Source: Akkermansia muciniphila (GTDB lineage: Bacteria > Verrucomicrobiota > Verrucomicrobiia > Opitutales > UBA953). From it: a DNA stretch of 64,000 nt. The notes beneath the pieces are model-generated. The model was not told the origin of the DNA and searched no databases. It saw only the letters and a program-made list of their open reading frames with translations. Positions within the stretch are counted from its first letter, which is position 1, and every line of letters begins with the position of its first letter. The position numbers and the translations under genes are program-made. The stretch spans positions 1-64,000 of the forward strand of contig CALQLO010000005.1 in NCBI GenBank assembly GCA_943331445.1, written 5' to 3'. Shown here one piece after another: positions 26,595 to 33,752 of the stretch.

Positions 26595-27692
26595 TTAGCG
26601 GATTGCTCCGCCGGAAAGCAGTGCCGCCAAGGCGGCTTCTTCTGGCACCGAGTCCGAGGTGCTGGCGGCACCGATGCCATCTTGCAGCACAAAGCGCAGT
26701 TTGCCTCCGCGTACCTTCTTGTCGCGGCGCATGGCGGCGAGCATGGGCTCGACGGGTAGAGGCGCGCGCAACTGGGTCGGTAGGTGGTGGGAGGCGATCA
26801 CCGCGGTGATTTGCTCGGCTTGGGCGGCGGTGCAATGGCCGAGGCCACAGGAGAGGCGGGCCGCCATGACGAGGCCGATGGCGACGGCCTCGCCGTGCAG
26901 GTAAGTGCCATAGCCGGCGGTGGCTTCGACGGCGTGGCCGAAAGTGTGGCCGAGATTCAAGAGGGCGCGCCCGCCTTGGGCGCTGGTCTCGCGCTCATCG
27001 TCGGCGACGACAGTGGCTTTGATTTCCACGCAGCGGCGGATGATCCGCGCGAGCAGAGGATGATTCCATGCCATTGGGGCGTTTTGTTCGAGTAGGCCGA
27101 AGAGATCGGCATCGGCGAGCAGGCCGTGCTTAATCACCTCAGCCATGCCGGCAGCGAACTCCCGTGCCGGCAGGGTGGCCAGTAGTTCGGTATCCGCCCA
27201 GACGGCGGTCGGCTGGTGGAAGTTGCCGACGAGATTCTTGCCCGCGGCTAGATTGATACCAGTCTTGCCGCCTACCGAGCTGTCGACCATCGCCAGTAAG
27301 GTCGTCGGTATCTGGTAGAAATCCACGCCGCGCTGGTAAGAGGCGGCCGCGAAACCGGCGAGATCGCCGATGACGCCTCCACCTAATGCGAAGACGGCCC
27401 CGTCGCGGGCGACGCCGCTGGCCGCGAGAAAATCCCAGACACGGGCGAGTTCCGCGGCAGACTTAGCCGTCTCGCCGTCTTGCGCCGTGACCAGTACGGG
27501 CATGAGCTTGGCGAGTTCCTGGGTTAATTCCGGCAAAGCCCGAGCCACGCCGGGCGAGGTCAGGGTGGCGCACTTCTGGCCAGCGGCAACGCGGCGAGCG
27601 GCGGTGGCAATGACCTCTTGGCGCAGGCCGGGGCCGATGCGTACGGGGTAGGAGCGTGCTCCTAGTTCGACGGTGACTGTCTCGGCCGGCAT
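26595..27692 (-). CDS. aroB: 3-dehydroquinate synthase
   Basis: The 365-residue NAD-dependent enzyme converts DAHP to 3-dehydroquinate in the shikimate pathway. It carries the NAD-binding GGGVIGDLAGFAAASYQRG, the substrate region PTTLLAMVDSSVGGKTGINLAAGKNLVG, EVIKHGLLAD, and zinc ligands in LNLGHTFGHAVE and LHGEAVAIG. Length is normal. It is the last gene of the ribBX-ribH-nusEB-ftsY-aroB run on the minus strand, 42 bases after ftsY, and abuts the convergent lipoprotein gene with no spacer. Confidence 0.97.
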   Translation of the reverse strand: MPAETVTVELGARSYPVRIGPGLRQEVIATAARRVAAGQKCATLTSPGVARALPELTQELAKLMPVLVTAQDGETAKSAAELARVWDFLAASGVARDGAVFALGGGVIGDLAGFAAASYQRGVDFYQIPTTLLAMVDSSVGGKTGINLAAGKNLVGNFHQPTAVWADTELLATLPAREFAAGMAEVIKHGLLADADLFGLLEQNAPMAWNHPLLARIIRRCVEIKATVVADDERETSAQGGRALLNLGHTFGHAVEATAGYGTYLHGEAVAIGLVMAARLSCGLGHCTAAQAEQITAVIASHHLPTQLRAPLPVEPMLAAMRRDKKVRGGKLRFVLQDGIGAASTSDSVPEEAALAALLSGGAIR

Positions 27693-27734: not shown

Positions 27735-28640
27735 TCACGCACCCAGACCAAGGACGGAGCGTGCGTAGGCTTGGGCGTCGAAGGGCTGCAGGTCGGCCGG
27801 CTGTTCGCCGACGCCGATGAAACGCACGGGCACATTGAGTTCGCGGACGACGGCCACCAGTGCTCCGCCGCGCGCCGTGCCATCGAGCTTGGTCACGATC
27901 AAGCCGGTCAGGCCGACGGCTTCATGAAAAACTTTTGCCTGTTCGATGGAGTTCGCACCGAGGGAGCCGTCCAGCACGAGCCACTTTTCATGGGGAGCCC
28001 CCACGCAGGCTTTCGCCGTCACCCGGACGACCTTACGCAACTCCTCGAGGAGATGCGCTTTGGTGTGGAGTCGACCAGCGGTATCCAGCACGACGATATC
28101 GACGCCCCGGGCGGTGCCGGCTTTAATGGCGTCAAAGGCGACAGCCGCGGGGTCGGCACCCGCGGCACCACCGACGACTTGTACGCCAAGGCGATCCGCC
28201 CAGGCGGAGAGTTGTTCCCCAGCGGCGGCCCGAAAAGTATCACAGGCACCCAGGAGACAGGTCCGATTTTCCTGCTGCCAGCGCCAGGCGAGCTTGGCGG
28301 CGGTGGTCGTTTTGCCGGCACCATTGACCCCCAGCAGCATAATCACCTGCGGCTTGGCGGAAATGTCGAGCGCGGCGGGGGCTTCGCCCAAGGCTTTAAC
28401 GATAGCGGCGACCGCGGCCTCCGCGGGAGTCGTCTTGCGAAGGGCGGCATCCGTCTTCCAAGCAGCCTGCGCGGCGACGACGACTTCTTCGGCCGTCGCG
28501 GGCCCAAAGTCGGCGGCGATGAGTCGTTCCCGCAGCTGCTCCGCTGACTGCGCGTCGATCGGACGGGCCAGCAAATTGGCGACGGCTTCGGCCGTGCGGC
28601 TCAAGCCGGACTTCAGTCGCTCGAAGAAGCCGCCCGCCAT
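27735..28640 (-). CDS. ftsY: Signal recognition particle receptor FtsY
   Basis: The 301-residue SRP receptor GTPase docks SRP-ribosome complexes at the membrane. The N domain (four-helix, residues 1-90) is followed by the G domain: GVNGAGKTTTAAKLA (G1), DTFRAAAGEQL, VLDTAGRLHTK (G3), TKLDGTARGG (G4) and FIGVGEQPADLQPFD. The acidic A domain found in E. coli is missing, so this is a short NG-only FtsY, common outside gamma-proteobacteria. The usual DATTGQNA is DGSLGANS here. It lies 3 bases after the S10-NusB fusion gene. Confidence 0.96.
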   Translation of the reverse strand: MAGGFFERLKSGLSRTAEAVANLLARPIDAQSAEQLRERLIAADFGPATAEEVVVAAQAAWKTDAALRKTTPAEAAVAAIVKALGEAPAALDISAKPQVIMLLGVNGAGKTTTAAKLAWRWQQENRTCLLGACDTFRAAAGEQLSAWADRLGVQVVGGAAGADPAAVAFDAIKAGTARGVDIVVLDTAGRLHTKAHLLEELRKVVRVTAKACVGAPHEKWLVLDGSLGANSIEQAKVFHEAVGLTGLIVTKLDGTARGGALVAVVRELNVPVRFIGVGEQPADLQPFDAQAYARSVLGLGA

Positions 28641-28643
28641 GGC

Positions 28644-29426
28644 TTAGCTGCCCTCGGCTTTGCGCGGGTCGCGCCCGAGCTCTTCCTTATAACTATCGAG
28701 GATGCCGTTTACGAAGCGCTTGGATTCCTCGGTGGAGAACTCCTTCGCGATATCGACGGCCTCATTGATGCTCACGACTGGCGGGATGTCCGTCCGGCGC
28801 ATGAGTTCGAAAATGGCCACGCGCAGGATGGCGAGGTCGACGCGGGCGATGCGGGCGAACGCCCAGTTCTTAGCATACTTCCCAATCACCTCGTCGATGA
28901 GCGCCACATCCCGGATGACTCCCTGGATCAGCTCTTCGGCGAAGGAGAAATACTCGCGGGGCTGTTCGCGCTCGGTGAAGAAGTCAAAGAGGGTGGTGAC
29001 CATGTCGCCGTGGCGTTGGACTTCCCATGAGCAGAGGAACTGCATCGCGGCGACGCGATTATCATGACGGCGATTACGCTTAGCCGGCGCAGCGTTGGGG
29101 TCCGGAACAATCGGATCATCCGGGGCGACAATGCTAATCTCGATGCCCGTGGGCAGATTGATGCGGCGCATCACTTCGACGGTCTGGGCGGTCGAGTTGA
29201 TGATTTCGATATTCCGGCGATGGCTGCGGATCTCGTCTTGGCCGGCGGCCCGGTAGACTTCCACCTGCGAAGGGAGCGGGAAGGGGCCAGAGATGCGGGC
29301 TCCCGTTGGGGCCACGCTGGCGACGATGTCCGCCGCAGACTGGTCGATCATGCGGTAATCCACCCCCTTGATACGAATGCGGATTTTAGCCCGGGCGGAG
29401 GGCGAAATAGGAGAGTCGGGGTCCAT
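28644..29426 (-). CDS. nusB: S10 (NusE)-NusB fusion protein, putative transcription antitermination factor
   Basis: The 260-residue product has two recognisable domains. Residues 14-99 follow ribosomal protein S10/NusE almost throughout: AKIRIRIKGVDYRMIDQSA, then TGARISGPFPLP, EIRSHRRNIEII and TAQTVEVMRRINLPTGIEISI. Between GPFPLP and EIRSH there are 12 residues, where E. coli S10 has 22, so the extended loop that anchors S10 in the ribosome is cut short. A Pro/Ala/Asp-rich linker (100-117) leads to a full NusB (about 119-255: RVAAMQFLCSWE, LIQGVIRDV, ARVDLAILRVAIFEL, INEAVDIAKEFSTEESKRFVNGILD). S10 and NusB are known partners that bind boxA RNA in rRNA antitermination. The start ATG shares one base with the ribH stop (TGATG). 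A normal rpsJ presumably exists elsewhere. The antitermination role is inference from the domains. Confidence 0.93.
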   Translation of the reverse strand: MDPDSPISPSARAKIRIRIKGVDYRMIDQSAADIVASVAPTGARISGPFPLPSQVEVYRAAGQDEIRSHRRNIEIINSTAQTVEVMRRINLPTGIEISIVAPDDPIVPDPNAAPAKRNRRHDNRVAAMQFLCSWEVQRHGDMVTTLFDFFTEREQPREYFSFAEELIQGVIRDVALIDEVIGKYAKNWAFARIARVDLAILRVAIFELMRRTDIPPVVSINEAVDIAKEFSTEESKRFVNGILDSYKEELGRDPRKAEGS

Positions 29427-29962
29427 CAGTTCTGGGCGAAAGGGTCTTGGCCGGCGCGCTTACGTTCCTCGTCTTCGACTTGGTCGAGGCGTTCGCCGAG
29501 GGTGACGCGATGGCGGGCCATGGTGAGCGCGGCATGGCCGAATTCGGCCCCGCGGTCTAGGGCGCCGAGGCATCGCTCGACGGCCTGCTCGCGGGTATTC
29601 GTGACGACGATGCCGTTGATGACAGGCACTTCAGCGCGGAGAGCCACGTCTTGGAGCGCCTTGGCGGTCGAGTGCGCAATAATCTCGTGGTGTGGGGTGT
29701 CCCCCGCGACGACGACGCCAAGTCCGATGACGCAATCAAAGTCTCCGGACATCGCGGTCATGTAGGCGGCGTAAGGAATCTCGCCGGAGCCAGGGACTTC
29801 GATGATGCGGATATTGTCTTCGGCCACTTGGGCGGACCGGAGGGCTTTGACGGCGTTCTTACGCAGGGCCTGGACGAGTTCTCCATTATATCCCGCCGTC
29901 ACAATCGCGAAGCGGAGATCAGCGCCGTCGAGGGCGTCAGGGATGGGCTTATCTAGGCTCAT
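29426..29962 (-). CDS. ribH: 6,7-dimethyl-8-ribityllumazine synthase
   Basis: The 178-residue enzyme condenses the ribB product with 5-amino-6-ribitylaminouracil in riboflavin synthesis. Visible motifs are FAIVTAGYNGELVQAL, the substrate loop IIEVPGSGEIPYAAYM, GLGVVVAGDTPHHEII (catalytic His), and PVINGIVVTNTREQAVER. I start at ATG 29962 (MSLDKPIPDALDG); an in-frame TTG at 30010 would add 16 residues with no match. Neither has a ribosome binding site. It lies 68 bases after ribBX and overlaps the S10-NusB gene by one base. Confidence 0.95.
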   Translation of the reverse strand: MSLDKPIPDALDGADLRFAIVTAGYNGELVQALRKNAVKALRSAQVAEDNIRIIEVPGSGEIPYAAYMTAMSGDFDCVIGLGVVVAGDTPHHEIIAHSTAKALQDVALRAEVPVINGIVVTNTREQAVERCLGALDRGAEFGHAALTMARHRVTLGERLDQVEDEERKRAGQDPFAQN

Positions 29963-30030: not shown

Positions 30031-31107
30031 TTAGAAGGGAACTTGTTCGACGATTTCCAGCCCGTAGCCGCCAAGTCCGACCACCTTGCGTGGGTTATTC
30101 GTGATGAGTCGAATGCGGCGCAGACCGATGTGGGACAGAATCTGTGCGCCGATGCCGTAGTCGCGTGCATCCATCGTGCCAAGGCGGATGCCTTCTTGAT
30201 CGGCATGCATGCCGCCGAAGGGTTGGGTAACGTGGACAATGACGCCCCGCCCAGCTTTGGCGACGGCCTCAAAGCTGGCGGCTAGCGAAGTGCCCGCACC
30301 AAAAGCATCACCGCGGAAAAGGTCACCGAGCAGGTTTTCGCGCTGCACGCGCACGAGCGTCGGGGACTCGTCCGGGGTGCCGAGGGTGAACGCGAGATGC
30401 TGGCGGCCATCTGGCAGCGAGCGGTAGACGCGCAGTTTGAACTCACCCCAAGCCGAATGAAAATCACTCTCGGCCACGAGCTCAACAAGTCGTTCGCTGC
30501 GGTGGCGGAACTCGATGAGTTGCGCGATGGAAATCATGTGCAGCCCAAACTTCTTTTTGAGTTCGACGAGTTCCGGCAAGCGAGCCATCGAGCCGTCTTC
30601 GTTGAGGATCTCGCAAATGACTCCGCTGGGGTGCAGGCCGGCGAGTGAGGCGAGATCGACCGCGGCCTCCGTGTGACCGGCACGCTGCAAGACGCCCCCG
30701 GGGCGGGCCAGCAGCGGAAAGATGTGTCCGGGTTGAACCAACTCTTCGGGCTTCGCCTGTGGATTCGCGAGGATGGCGATAGTCTTGGCGCGATCGTAGG
30801 CGGAGATGCCGGTTGAGATGCCGTCGGCGGCGTCGACGGAGACGGCGAATGCCGTGCGCTGCGACTCACGATTCTCTGGGACCATCTGGGAGATGCCAAG
30901 CCGGCGTAATTGGTGCTCCACCGTCGGTACGCAGATCAGTCCACGGGCGTGCCGGATCATCATGTTGATGGTTTCCGGCGTGGCCTTGGAGGCCGCCATG
31001 ACGAGGTCGCCTTCGTTCTCCCGGTTTTCGTCATCCGTCACAATGACGAGCTTCCCCGCGGCGATGTCCGCGAGGGCTTCCTCGATGGTGTCGAAGGGCT
31101 CGTGCAT
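30031..31107 (-). CDS. ribB: 3,4-dihydroxy-2-butanone-4-phosphate synthase with inactive GTP cyclohydrolase II-like domain (RibBX type)
   Basis: The 358-residue product has an intact RibB domain (residues 1-200) with TDDENRENEGDLVMAA, RHARGLICV, DRAKTI and GHTEAAVDLASLAG, which makes the four-carbon unit of riboflavin from ribulose 5-phosphate. The C-terminal RibA-like domain (about 215-358) keeps RIRLITNNPRKV but has lost the zinc site. Where RibA has SECLTGD and RCDCG, this protein has RENLLGD and AFGAG, so all three Cys are gone (aligned positions N258, F269, A271), and the GTP-binding middle is shortened. It is therefore probably no GTP cyclohydrolase. ATG 31107 gives the normal RibB start; the longer frame from 31293 runs into the previous gene. 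Confidence 0.9.
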   Translation of the reverse strand: MHEPFDTIEEALADIAAGKLVIVTDDENRENEGDLVMAASKATPETINMMIRHARGLICVPTVEHQLRRLGISQMVPENRESQRTAFAVSVDAADGISTGISAYDRAKTIAILANPQAKPEELVQPGHIFPLLARPGGVLQRAGHTEAAVDLASLAGLHPSGVICEILNEDGSMARLPELVELKKKFGLHMISIAQLIEFRHRSERLVELVAESDFHSAWGEFKLRVYRSLPDGRQHLAFTLGTPDESPTLVRVQRENLLGDLFRGDAFGAGTSLAASFEAVAKAGRGVIVHVTQPFGGMHADQEGIRLGTMDARDYGIGAQILSHIGLRRIRLITNNPRKVVGLGGYGLEIVEQVPF

Positions 31108-31217: not shown

Positions 31218-33707
31218 TTATTCGTAAGTGAGTTGTGCGGTTGCCTTGGTTGTAGCCGAGGAGACCGCACGGACCCAATACGCATTGAGCCAATCCGGGA
31301 AGACGAAGGTCTGCTTCTCGCCGGGCGCTAACTTGAAACTTCGGTAGGCCGCGAAGCGGCCGTCGCCGGCGGCATCGAGCTCGACGGTGATGGTCGTCTC
31401 GACGTCACCATGGTTGGCGAGCAGGAGGGTCTTCTTGTCGTAGCCGGTCATGAGGTAGGGATCCGAGGGCTTGCCCGCTTCGACGGCGCTTTGCTTCCAC
31501 GGGCCACCGCAACCGCGCGGCTTACCGAGCTGCCAGAGATCATCGGCGGCACCCACCCACACGGCGGCCTTACCGTCGTCGGAACGAATGATGTGGGGGT
31601 TGCTCTGCCCAGCGAGGCGCGCGTTGGGGTCGATGCCGCTGAGCACAAGCAAGCCGCGGTAAGAACAATAATCATGCACTGTGGTATCGCTTGTGGCGAC
31701 GGGGCGCATGCGAATCGCGCCCATGGCGTTGAGCGCCGGTAGCTCGTAGAAGGTGCCGTGGGCTTGAAGCAGGTCGCGCTCGGTGCAGACTTCGCGAGCC
31801 TTGCGCAAGGCACTCCGGGTGAGCAGTCCATCCTGCGCCGGCGAAGCCGAGCGCGGCAGTCGCCACCGCACGCCGCTTTCTTCAAAAATAACCGAGGCCT
31901 CATCCGCTGTCAGGACGCCCCGGGGAATGGCGGTATTCTTTTCAATGTAGGCCGCGACCTTCGGGTCGGTCTGCTTGGTGAGCTTCAGGTCGGCGGAGAG
32001 TTCGTAGGCGTCGCCCAGCGTGGTCTTGTCGTTGTCGACGGTTGCGGTGAGCACCGAGAGTGTGCGCAGATTGGCCCCGCGCGTCAGTAAGAACGCGCCT
32101 TGCGACGTCGCGTCGGTGGCCCGGCTCAGGCCTTTGAAGATCTCGCCGCGCCTGGTCGCCCGCGTGTCATTCGCTGCGTATTGGAAGGTGGCGGTGGCCT
32201 TGGCGACATCGCGGTCGGCGGTGATCCGGATCCAAGAACCTTTGATGACATGGTTCAGTTCAAGCCACTGCGAGCTGTGCTCTCCCGGATAGAGCGCCGC
32301 CTGGCCGTAGTGCATCCATGTCGGCACGACGTCCGCCCGGGGCGACCCGTAGATCTCGATCGTGAACATCGTCGGCTCGGTACCGTCGTACTTCAGAAAG
32401 AGAGCGCGCTTGTCGAAGCCCTCGCAGAGGAACGGATCCGAGGGCACGCCGGCTTTGACGGGCTCGTCGACCCACACGCTGCCGCGCCCGAGCGCCGGGC
32501 CGAGTTTATCTGGCGTGTCCAGCGAGGTGAACCAGAGGTTGGATTGCGACTGGCCGGGGCCGGCGAGCGTGCCCTTGGCGGGACGCTTGTTGAGGAATTC
32601 CGACTTGGCGGTGTCGTCACAGCCGAAGACGAGCCGGTCCTGCCAGCGCGTGAAGTCGCCGATGACTTTAAGGTAAGCGGAGCGCGGCGTGATGCCGGTC
32701 AGGTGCTTCGACGAGAAACCCGCGGGGAATTTCCAGAAGAGGCCGTGCATGGTCATCAGTCGCGAGCCTTCTTCGCCGATGTCGCGGATGCGCGGCCACT
32801 CGGTGTTCCAGCCGTGCGCGCCGTCGTAGGAGTGGCTGCCCTTGGGCAGGCGGTAGCTCGTCCACTTGCCGTCTTCCATCACCATGAGGATCAGCGAGCG
32901 GAAGTCCCAGCCAATCGTCCAGAGCGGGTCCTTCGCGGAATCGGCGTTGCCGTTCAGGCCGCCGGGGCCAGTGACTTCGGTGAACTGGTTTCGCCGGATG
33001 AGCGACCAGTTGCCCGCGCCGTTGAAGGAGCCAAGGCCGCCGCTGACGATCGTCGGGTCGATGAGTGCCTTCGCGCCCTGTTCGCCGTTGTTCGCGAGGA
33101 TGACCAATCCCTGGCCGGAGTAGAGTCCCTTGCCGTGATAACCAGGCAGCGTCGAGGTGATGGTCGCGGGGCTGGCCTCCGCGGTCTGGCCTGGCTTCGG
33201 GACGTTCTTGATCTCCTTGATGAGTCCCTTCACGGCGAGCGTACGGACGTCCACCTCATACAGGCCGTCTTCCATGGTGGCGAAGTAGACCTTGTTCTCA
33301 GGCTCTGTCAGGTGGCGGGCGTTGCCGGTGAGGCGACCGGGCATCAGCTTCGGCGGGATGACCCGCACCTCGCGTTCCGCACCGATGAAGTAAGGCCCGA
33401 TGATCAGTTGGTTCGACTCCTTATGAATCATACGGTTGGCCGGCGTACCGCCGACGCTCTCCGGTCGGATGATCTGCTGCAGGTCAGGCGTGATCTCGTA
33501 GAGCTTGTCACTCGAGCCATACGGTAGGTGTGGTCCATAGGTGATCACCCAGAGGCGGCCCGCCCATGGTACGACGGCCCCAGTGCCGCACTCGCCCTCG
33601 TTATTAAAATAGGCGAGCGATGGGTAGATGCCGGACCACTCTTGCGGGGCGGCCCCGGCTACTCCGGTGAGTAGGCAGAGGAGAAGGCCGAGGGGACGCA
33701 GGGGCAT
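31218..33707 (-). CDS. Large exported protein of unknown function
   Basis: I do not recognise a named family. The product (about 829 residues from the ATG at 33707) begins with a signal peptide, MPLRPLGLLLCLLTGVAGAAPQ, and reads as a beta-rich protein. It has WD-like phrases in the first half (GRLWVITYGPHLPYGSSDKLYEITPD, NKVYFATMEDGLYEVD). Two similar modules each include a phrase KAGVPSDPFLCEGFDKRALFLKYDG and EAGKPSDPYLMTGYDKKTLLLANHG, so an internal duplication of a PSDPxLxxGxDKxxLxL unit is evident. It is predicted periplasmic, secreted or surface-bound. It is separated from comEC by 45 bases and from ribBX by 110 bases. Confidence 0.75.
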   Translation of the reverse strand: MPLRPLGLLLCLLTGVAGAAPQEWSGIYPSLAYFNNEGECGTGAVVPWAGRLWVITYGPHLPYGSSDKLYEITPDLQQIIRPESVGGTPANRMIHKESNQLIIGPYFIGAEREVRVIPPKLMPGRLTGNARHLTEPENKVYFATMEDGLYEVDVRTLAVKGLIKEIKNVPKPGQTAEASPATITSTLPGYHGKGLYSGQGLVILANNGEQGAKALIDPTIVSGGLGSFNGAGNWSLIRRNQFTEVTGPGGLNGNADSAKDPLWTIGWDFRSLILMVMEDGKWTSYRLPKGSHSYDGAHGWNTEWPRIRDIGEEGSRLMTMHGLFWKFPAGFSSKHLTGITPRSAYLKVIGDFTRWQDRLVFGCDDTAKSEFLNKRPAKGTLAGPGQSQSNLWFTSLDTPDKLGPALGRGSVWVDEPVKAGVPSDPFLCEGFDKRALFLKYDGTEPTMFTIEIYGSPRADVVPTWMHYGQAALYPGEHSSQWLELNHVIKGSWIRITADRDVAKATATFQYAANDTRATRRGEIFKGLSRATDATSQGAFLLTRGANLRTLSVLTATVDNDKTTLGDAYELSADLKLTKQTDPKVAAYIEKNTAIPRGVLTADEASVIFEESGVRWRLPRSASPAQDGLLTRSALRKAREVCTERDLLQAHGTFYELPALNAMGAIRMRPVATSDTTVHDYCSYRGLLVLSGIDPNARLAGQSNPHIIRSDDGKAAVWVGAADDLWQLGKPRGCGGPWKQSAVEAGKPSDPYLMTGYDKKTLLLANHGDVETTITVELDAAGDGRFAAYRSFKLAPGEKQTFVFPDWLNAYWVRAVSSATTKATAQLTYE

Positions 33708-33752
33708 AGGCGAACTTTTTACCACGGCGGGCCCGAAGCAATAGTAAGAAAA

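Follow-up and report, generated by a model that had tools for sequence, protein, structure and literature searches.

The window analysed here, a stretch of 64,000 nucleotides, carries on its minus strand an open reading frame of 260 amino acids (positions 28644..29426; ATG at 29426-29424, stop at 28646-28644) whose translation joins an S10 (NusE) domain to NusB; the plus-strand frame of the same interval is interrupted by a stop. The gene belongs to a conserved cluster, transcribed from the minus strand, with the order ribBA-ribH-[S10]nusB-ftsY-aroB. Upstream lie ribBA (30031..31107) and ribH, encoding lumazine synthase (29426..29962), and downstream lie ftsY, 3 nt beyond the fusion (27735..28640), and aroB (26595..27692). 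The stop codon of ribH and the start codon of the fusion overlap by one base in the sequence TGATG (29424..29428, minus strand), suggesting that translation of the fusion may be coupled to that of ribH. On the other side of ribBA, positions 31218-33725 of the minus strand encode an 835-amino acid protein that has no NCBIfam match and is perhaps a secreted repeat protein.

The S10 domain occupies residues 14-99 (29130..29387, minus strand), where the predicted fold and structural searches agree with a match to the Pfam family Ribosomal_S10 (PF00338) at residues 16-99 (E 1e-12, 48.6 bits against a cut-off of 21.2). It is followed by a Pro/Ala/Asp-rich linker of 18 amino acids (residues 100-117; 29076..29129, minus strand), with low pLDDT at residues 103-108 and 112-116, and by the NusB domain (residues 118-250; 28677..29075, minus strand), in which residues 122-246 match nearly the whole of the Pfam NusB profile (PF01029; E 2.4e-31, 109.3 bits against 23.1). 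A preliminary description, made from the nucleotide sequence, had proposed exactly this arrangement, an S10-like domain at residues 14-99, a linker of 18 Pro/Ala/Asp-rich residues and a complete NusB, and the profile matches bear it out. The fusion scores 132.2 bits against the NusB equivalog TIGR01951, above its cut-off of 88.35, and falls below the cut-offs of both rpsJ equivalogs, TIGR01049 and PRK00596 (64.7 against 72.75 and 69 against 85). Between the GPFPLP and EIRSH motifs the S10 domain has 12 residues (residues 53-64; 29235..29270, minus strand), forming a shortened beta2-beta3 turn in place of the 22-residue ribosome loop present in both E. coli S10 and the genome's own rpsJ. The assignment of the short turn is based on alignments and on matches in the PDB to engineered loop-deleted S10.

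An AlphaFold2 model made from a 60-sequence alignment contains both folds, with a mean pLDDT of 79 and values above 80 over most of the NusB domain. In this model the S10 domain has the order beta1-alpha1-beta2-beta3-alpha2-beta4, the short turn joining beta2 and beta3, while the placement of the two domains relative to one another is of low confidence (pTM 0.57 with the 60-row alignment and 0.37 with a fusion-only alignment). Foldseek matched the S10 domain to 2kvq_E, the loop-deleted NusE of the NusE:NusG-CTD complex (TMt 0.92, rmsd 1.3), and the NusB domain to 3imq_A of the NusB101-S10(delta loop) complex (TMt 0.89). A sequence search of the PDB likewise returned the engineered loop-deleted S10 of 3d3b, 3d3c, 3imq, 3r2c/d and 2kvq. 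The comparison of a predicted single chain with known structures, which had been put forward at the outset, thus supports the two folds, the S10 part resembling engineered loop-deleted NusE (2kvq_E).

A profile search of the genome identified a separate canonical rpsJ (G000:C79, E 4.6e-36), which encodes the 22-residue loop ('...TDISRLTVNRSPHVDKKSMDQF...') with the SPHVxK tip present and precedes rplC and rplD in an S10 operon, whereas the fusion is flanked by ribH and ftsY. The preliminary description had made its reading depend on such a full-length rpsJ, which is present. The S10 domain of the fusion is 54% identical to this rpsJ, and the fusion is the sole NusB gene of the genome. As the genome encodes a separate rpsJ and no other NusB, the ribosomal S10 is another protein than the fusion, and whatever NusB function exists must be supplied by the fusion. 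A standard nusG is also encoded (G000:C16). A second protein of the NusG family (L217, G000:C1:174837-175316) is nearest to RfaH, with 108.8 bits, below the curated cut-off of 144.5.

The search of related genomes for NusB proteins with an S10 domain, likewise suggested at the outset, recovered the intact single-frame fusion from 37 of the 55 genomes of the genus, with one further copy (G324) split across contig ends. Plain NusB is found in nine of the 55, and in eight, mostly incomplete, no NusB was seen. Both rpsJ and the fusion are present in 31 of the 38 fused genomes, including all that are at least 90% complete. The carriers are uncultured Opitutia genomes, mostly MAGs, from freshwater and apparently mainly from lakes. 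All of the genomes are drafts and most are labelled as metagenome-assembled, which could favour a chimera or a frameshift that joined two genes, an artefact that the preliminary description had named as able to overturn its reading. Against this, the junction and its frame recur in 37 genomes that stem from many lakes and many assemblies, BS8 and BS10 among them, whose records lack the MAG label. The fusions come from independent assemblies at 52-99% identity, internal stops are absent, and codon-level purifying selection extends across the junction. An assembly error is refuted by this recurrence, and we attach practically no probability to it.

Outside the genus, no S10-NusB frame was found among 289 genomes sampled over the phylum, and within the same 289 genomes no second S10 match was found except in the genome of the window. 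In the other families of the order NusB is plain, and its gene lies within a ribH-nusB-ftsY context; in other Opitutales these proteins are about 45-60% identical to the NusB part of the fusion and have no S10 domain. Phage and plasmid collections returned separate NusB or S10 matches only, none covering 80% of the query. An apparent fusion from Lentisphaerae (L152) was rejected, being ribH read out of frame in GC-rich DNA, and long open frames around rpsJ in two genomes (G042 and G047) were taken to be stop-poor GC-rich frames with a single rpsJ match.

A tree was built from the neighbouring RibBA, RibH, FtsY and AroB. On it the divergent fusion L050 (genome G019) is basal in the genus, and members with plain NusB are nested inside the fused ones at two places. 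In AU tests, trees with all fused members in one clade were rejected (p-AU 3e-5), as were trees with all unfused members in one clade (p-AU 6e-5), the former result also rejecting the unfused state as primitive within the genus. The simplest account of these sequences is a single gain at the root of the genus, after which the S10 domain was lost twice, three parsimony changes in all. The GC content at the locus is 48-56% in unfused and 60-73% in fused members, and composition bias is accordingly a caveat: such differences could distort the tree, which makes the count of losses less certain than the nested position of the unfused members. Since the S10 domain was later dropped twice within the genus, the fusion is not irreplaceable. 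In a tree of S10 sequences, from which the long-branched L050 was left out, the S10 domains of the fusions form a 100% clade that is joined to the rpsJ of the genus at 79%. Judged by this grouping, the S10 domain is a duplicate of rpsJ of local origin. L050 could not be placed by its S10 domain owing to the long branch, and its position is that given by the neighbour genes.

Several members of the genus deserve separate mention. One of the losses concerns a clade whose genomes are small (1.2-1.5 Mb) and low in GC (L106, L108, L109, L112, L107, L110 and L212), in which genome streamlining coincided with loss of the S10 domain. L050, the most divergent fusion, has an even shorter turn (GPLPEPALDTAAGRRH), a degraded EIRxH motif and V at the NusB Y18 equivalent; its S10 domain is possibly heading for loss or for another use. 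In the unfused lineage L105/L208 (G137:C8) ribBA is absent beside ribH, RibH is divergent (55%) and NusB is 88% identical, and the cluster looks rearranged.

Residues of the S10 domain were compared between 26 aligned fusions and 35 rpsJ sequences. The contraction of the loop from 22 to 12 residues, first noticed in the fusion of the window, is confirmed throughout: the loop is deleted in every aligned fusion, with 12-13 residues in 25 of them and fewer in L050, against 22 in rpsJ. The SPHVxK loop tip, which in ribosomal S10 contacts helix 31 (h31) of 16S rRNA (PMC8249722), is missing from 26/26, and E. coli positions 50-58, covering most of this tip, are absent from all 26. In the 3D3B interface, H15, R16, D19 and V26 of NusE meet Y18, L22, E75 and E81 of NusB (PMC8341153). 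R16, D19, Q20, GPxPxP, R68, H70 and R72 are kept in every fusion, so that R16, D19 and the beta2 GPxPxP strand of the NusB-facing side are found in 26/26. The H15 position is Y/F/H in the fusions and Y in most rpsJ of the genus, and V26 is variable (I/A/V/T). The second half of alpha1 is relaxed in the fusions at A29, K30 and R31, which are invariant in rpsJ, as are the likewise relaxed T69 and P79. On the helix and strand facing RNA polymerase and NusG, T83, N91, P93 and G95 are nearly invariant in the fusions. Of further residues that bear on the binding of the NusG-CTD and RNA polymerase, the D97 equivalent is E/D in 26/26 and the M88 equivalent is R/Q.

Within clades, dN/dS is 0.018-0.163 for the S10 core and 0.026-0.061 for NusB, and several pairs of fusions have no amino acid change at dS 0.25-0.36. 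By these ratios the S10 part is under purifying selection. The points of the preliminary description that could be tested on sequences thus gain further support from the retained NusB-facing residues and from purifying selection on both domains. These same data bear on whether the S10 domain could be a chance-fused rpsJ duplicate that is tolerated and slowly decaying without any role. Such an origin would fit the loss of the domain in at least two lineages and the disappearance of the loop, as well as the pace of the S10 part, which in three of four clades changes at about two to three times the rate of NusB. It is difficult to reconcile with the low within-clade dN/dS and the pairs free of amino acid change, with a frame that is open in all 37 intact copies and with key residues that are invariant across 52-99% identity, and we consider it highly improbable.

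The NusB side of the interface gave an unexpected sign. The Y18 equivalent is C/V in 19 of 26 fusions and Y/F in all 36 unfused NusBs, those of other Opitutales among them, and the E75 equivalent is G/A in 19 of 26 fusions and acidic in 28 of the 36 unfused proteins; the E81 equivalent is acidic in all. C/V at Y18 is restricted to fused lineages, the site requiring four parsimony changes over the whole tree, one of which is Y/F in an outgroup. We read these substitutions as a sign that the tethered partner may have relaxed or retuned the NusB-S10 interface. The changes to C at Y18 and to G/A at E75 could equally mean a weakened interface, and for this reason we retain a second interpretation of the S10 domain, namely a tethered plug or intramolecular regulator that sits on the S10 site of NusB, with the effect that NusB does not titrate ribosomal S10 and is idle until free full-length S10 displaces the plug. 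The altered Y18 and E75 contacts, which may lower affinity for some S10, are compatible with such a plug, as is the described scarcity of free NusE. A plug, however, has no need of a helix and strand facing RNA polymerase and NusG, yet four positions there are nearly invariant; the residues of a competent NusE (R16, D19, GPxPxP, R68, H70 and R72) are kept in all fusions and no acquired inhibitory element is seen in them. We therefore regard inhibition by the attached domain as unlikely.

We propose a model in which the fusion is a dedicated, non-ribosomal NusE tethered to NusB, forming a one-chain antitermination module, and we consider this reading probable. A duplicate of the lineage's rpsJ would have been inserted between ribH and nusB and joined to nusB, and the joined copy would have lost the ribosome-insertion loop, becoming a NusE dedicated to transcription. 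The S10 domain would dock, with R16 and D19 of helix alpha1 and with the GPxPxP strand, onto the NusB to which it is joined, and the pair would bind boxA in nascent rRNA, leaving the opposite face of S10 free for the NusG-CTD and RNA polymerase. Work in E. coli lends this arrangement support. The preliminary description had stated that the loop is dispensable for antitermination, and this is borne out by a passage of PMC8249722, citing Luo 2008, in which loop-deleted S10 is fully functional in E. coli antitermination. Loop-deleted NusE together with NusB binds RNA polymerase and the NusG-CTD through a face opposite that which meets NusB (PMC4642336), and a passage of PMC10931766, again citing Luo 2008, states that S10 bound to NusB is blocked from the ribosome. 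The deleted loop and the attached NusB, taken with these facts, make a permanent NusE-NusB pair acting on boxA RNA the most likely function. Free NusE is described as scarce (PMC4642336), and owing to the tether, the pair should form independently of the small ribosome-free pool of S10. Against the model weigh the low confidence with which the two domains are placed, the variable V26 and second half of alpha1, the faster evolution of the S10 part, the NusB contact changes if they weaken the interface, and the two or more lineages that live with plain NusB.

As to the target of the module, neither a 16S gene nor an rRNA leader with its boxA was recovered from the 55 genomes of the genus by Rfam or by a 515F pattern, nearly complete few-contig genomes included. 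Upstream of 5S, the contigs that carry it run for about 2.5-2.9 kb and stop inside or close to the presumed 23S; the assemblies may lack the 16S gene, or the collection may have it masked. The module could alternatively be specialised for targets other than rRNA, such as boxA sites in mRNA or a particular NusG paralog, rRNA synthesis then being NusB-free. The RfaH-like second NusG paralog of this genome and the action of E. coli NusB-NusE on suhB mRNA (PMC10931766) lend this some weight. Against it, the fusion is the only NusB, so that any NusB-based rRNA antitermination must use it, and no linkage of the fusion to the NusG paralog was seen. We think such a specialisation very unlikely. Returning to a tethered NusE that acts on rRNA, a broader scenario, which we advance tentatively and hold to be possible rather than probable, is that the transcriptional job of S10 has passed to a ribosome-excluded, NusB-tethered paralog, that NusB has changed to the point where free ribosomal S10 is of no more use to it, and that rRNA antitermination has thereby become independent of ribosomal protein supply, with some lineages reverting to the two-protein state.

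The fusion draws on the same two families as the E. coli NusB-NusE (S10) heterodimer of rrn and lambda N antitermination (PDB 3d3b, 5lm7 and 6tqo), with which it shares R16, D19 and GPxPxP of S10, the NusB fold and the acidic E81 equivalent. Unlike the heterodimer it is a single polypeptide with an 18-amino acid linker, its S10 part is a paralog of the ribosomal protein, and the NusB Y18 and E75 equivalents are changed in most fusions. In the engineered loop-deleted NusE of 3d3b, 3d3c, 3imq, 2kvq and 3r2c/d the beta2-beta3 loop is likewise gone and the core fold kept; the fusion, however, is natural, retains a turn of 12-13 amino acids and is covalently joined to NusB. From ribosomal uS10 (rpsJ), of homologous fold, it differs by the missing SPHVxK tip and by scores under both NCBIfam rpsJ cut-offs. 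RfaH and LoaP, as NusG paralogs, are also specialised duplicates of a general antitermination factor, but belong to a different family. We know of no NusG paralog, RfaH and LoaP included, that is fused to its partner.

Among moonlighting ribosomal proteins S10/NusE is a classic case, and the NusB-NusE pair is an antibacterial target. Evolution appears to have built the construct of the crystallographers, S10 without its loop and kept at NusB, as a single chain and with rpsJ left intact, and the fusion would offer a natural way to separate the ribosomal from the transcriptional roles of S10. Free S10 is thought to be scarce and yet required for rRNA antitermination (PMC4642336). The fusion allows a direct test of whether this dependence couples rRNA synthesis to ribosome assembly in a regulatory way or is a historical accident, with the lineages that have lost the S10 domain as controls. 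Structural studies of NusB-NusE may also find in it a single-chain reagent that is ready for use. No description of a natural S10-NusB fusion or of a dedicated NusE paralog was found in the open-access literature, in keeping with the preliminary description, whose author knew of none. Both domains and their partnership were already known; the architecture is new, as is the division of labour if the proposed function holds. Finally, a record titled Polynucleobacter meluiroseus, a betaproteobacterium (L091, CALPIW020000083.1), has an Opitutia S10-NusB locus, and this MAG appears to be misnamed or contaminated.
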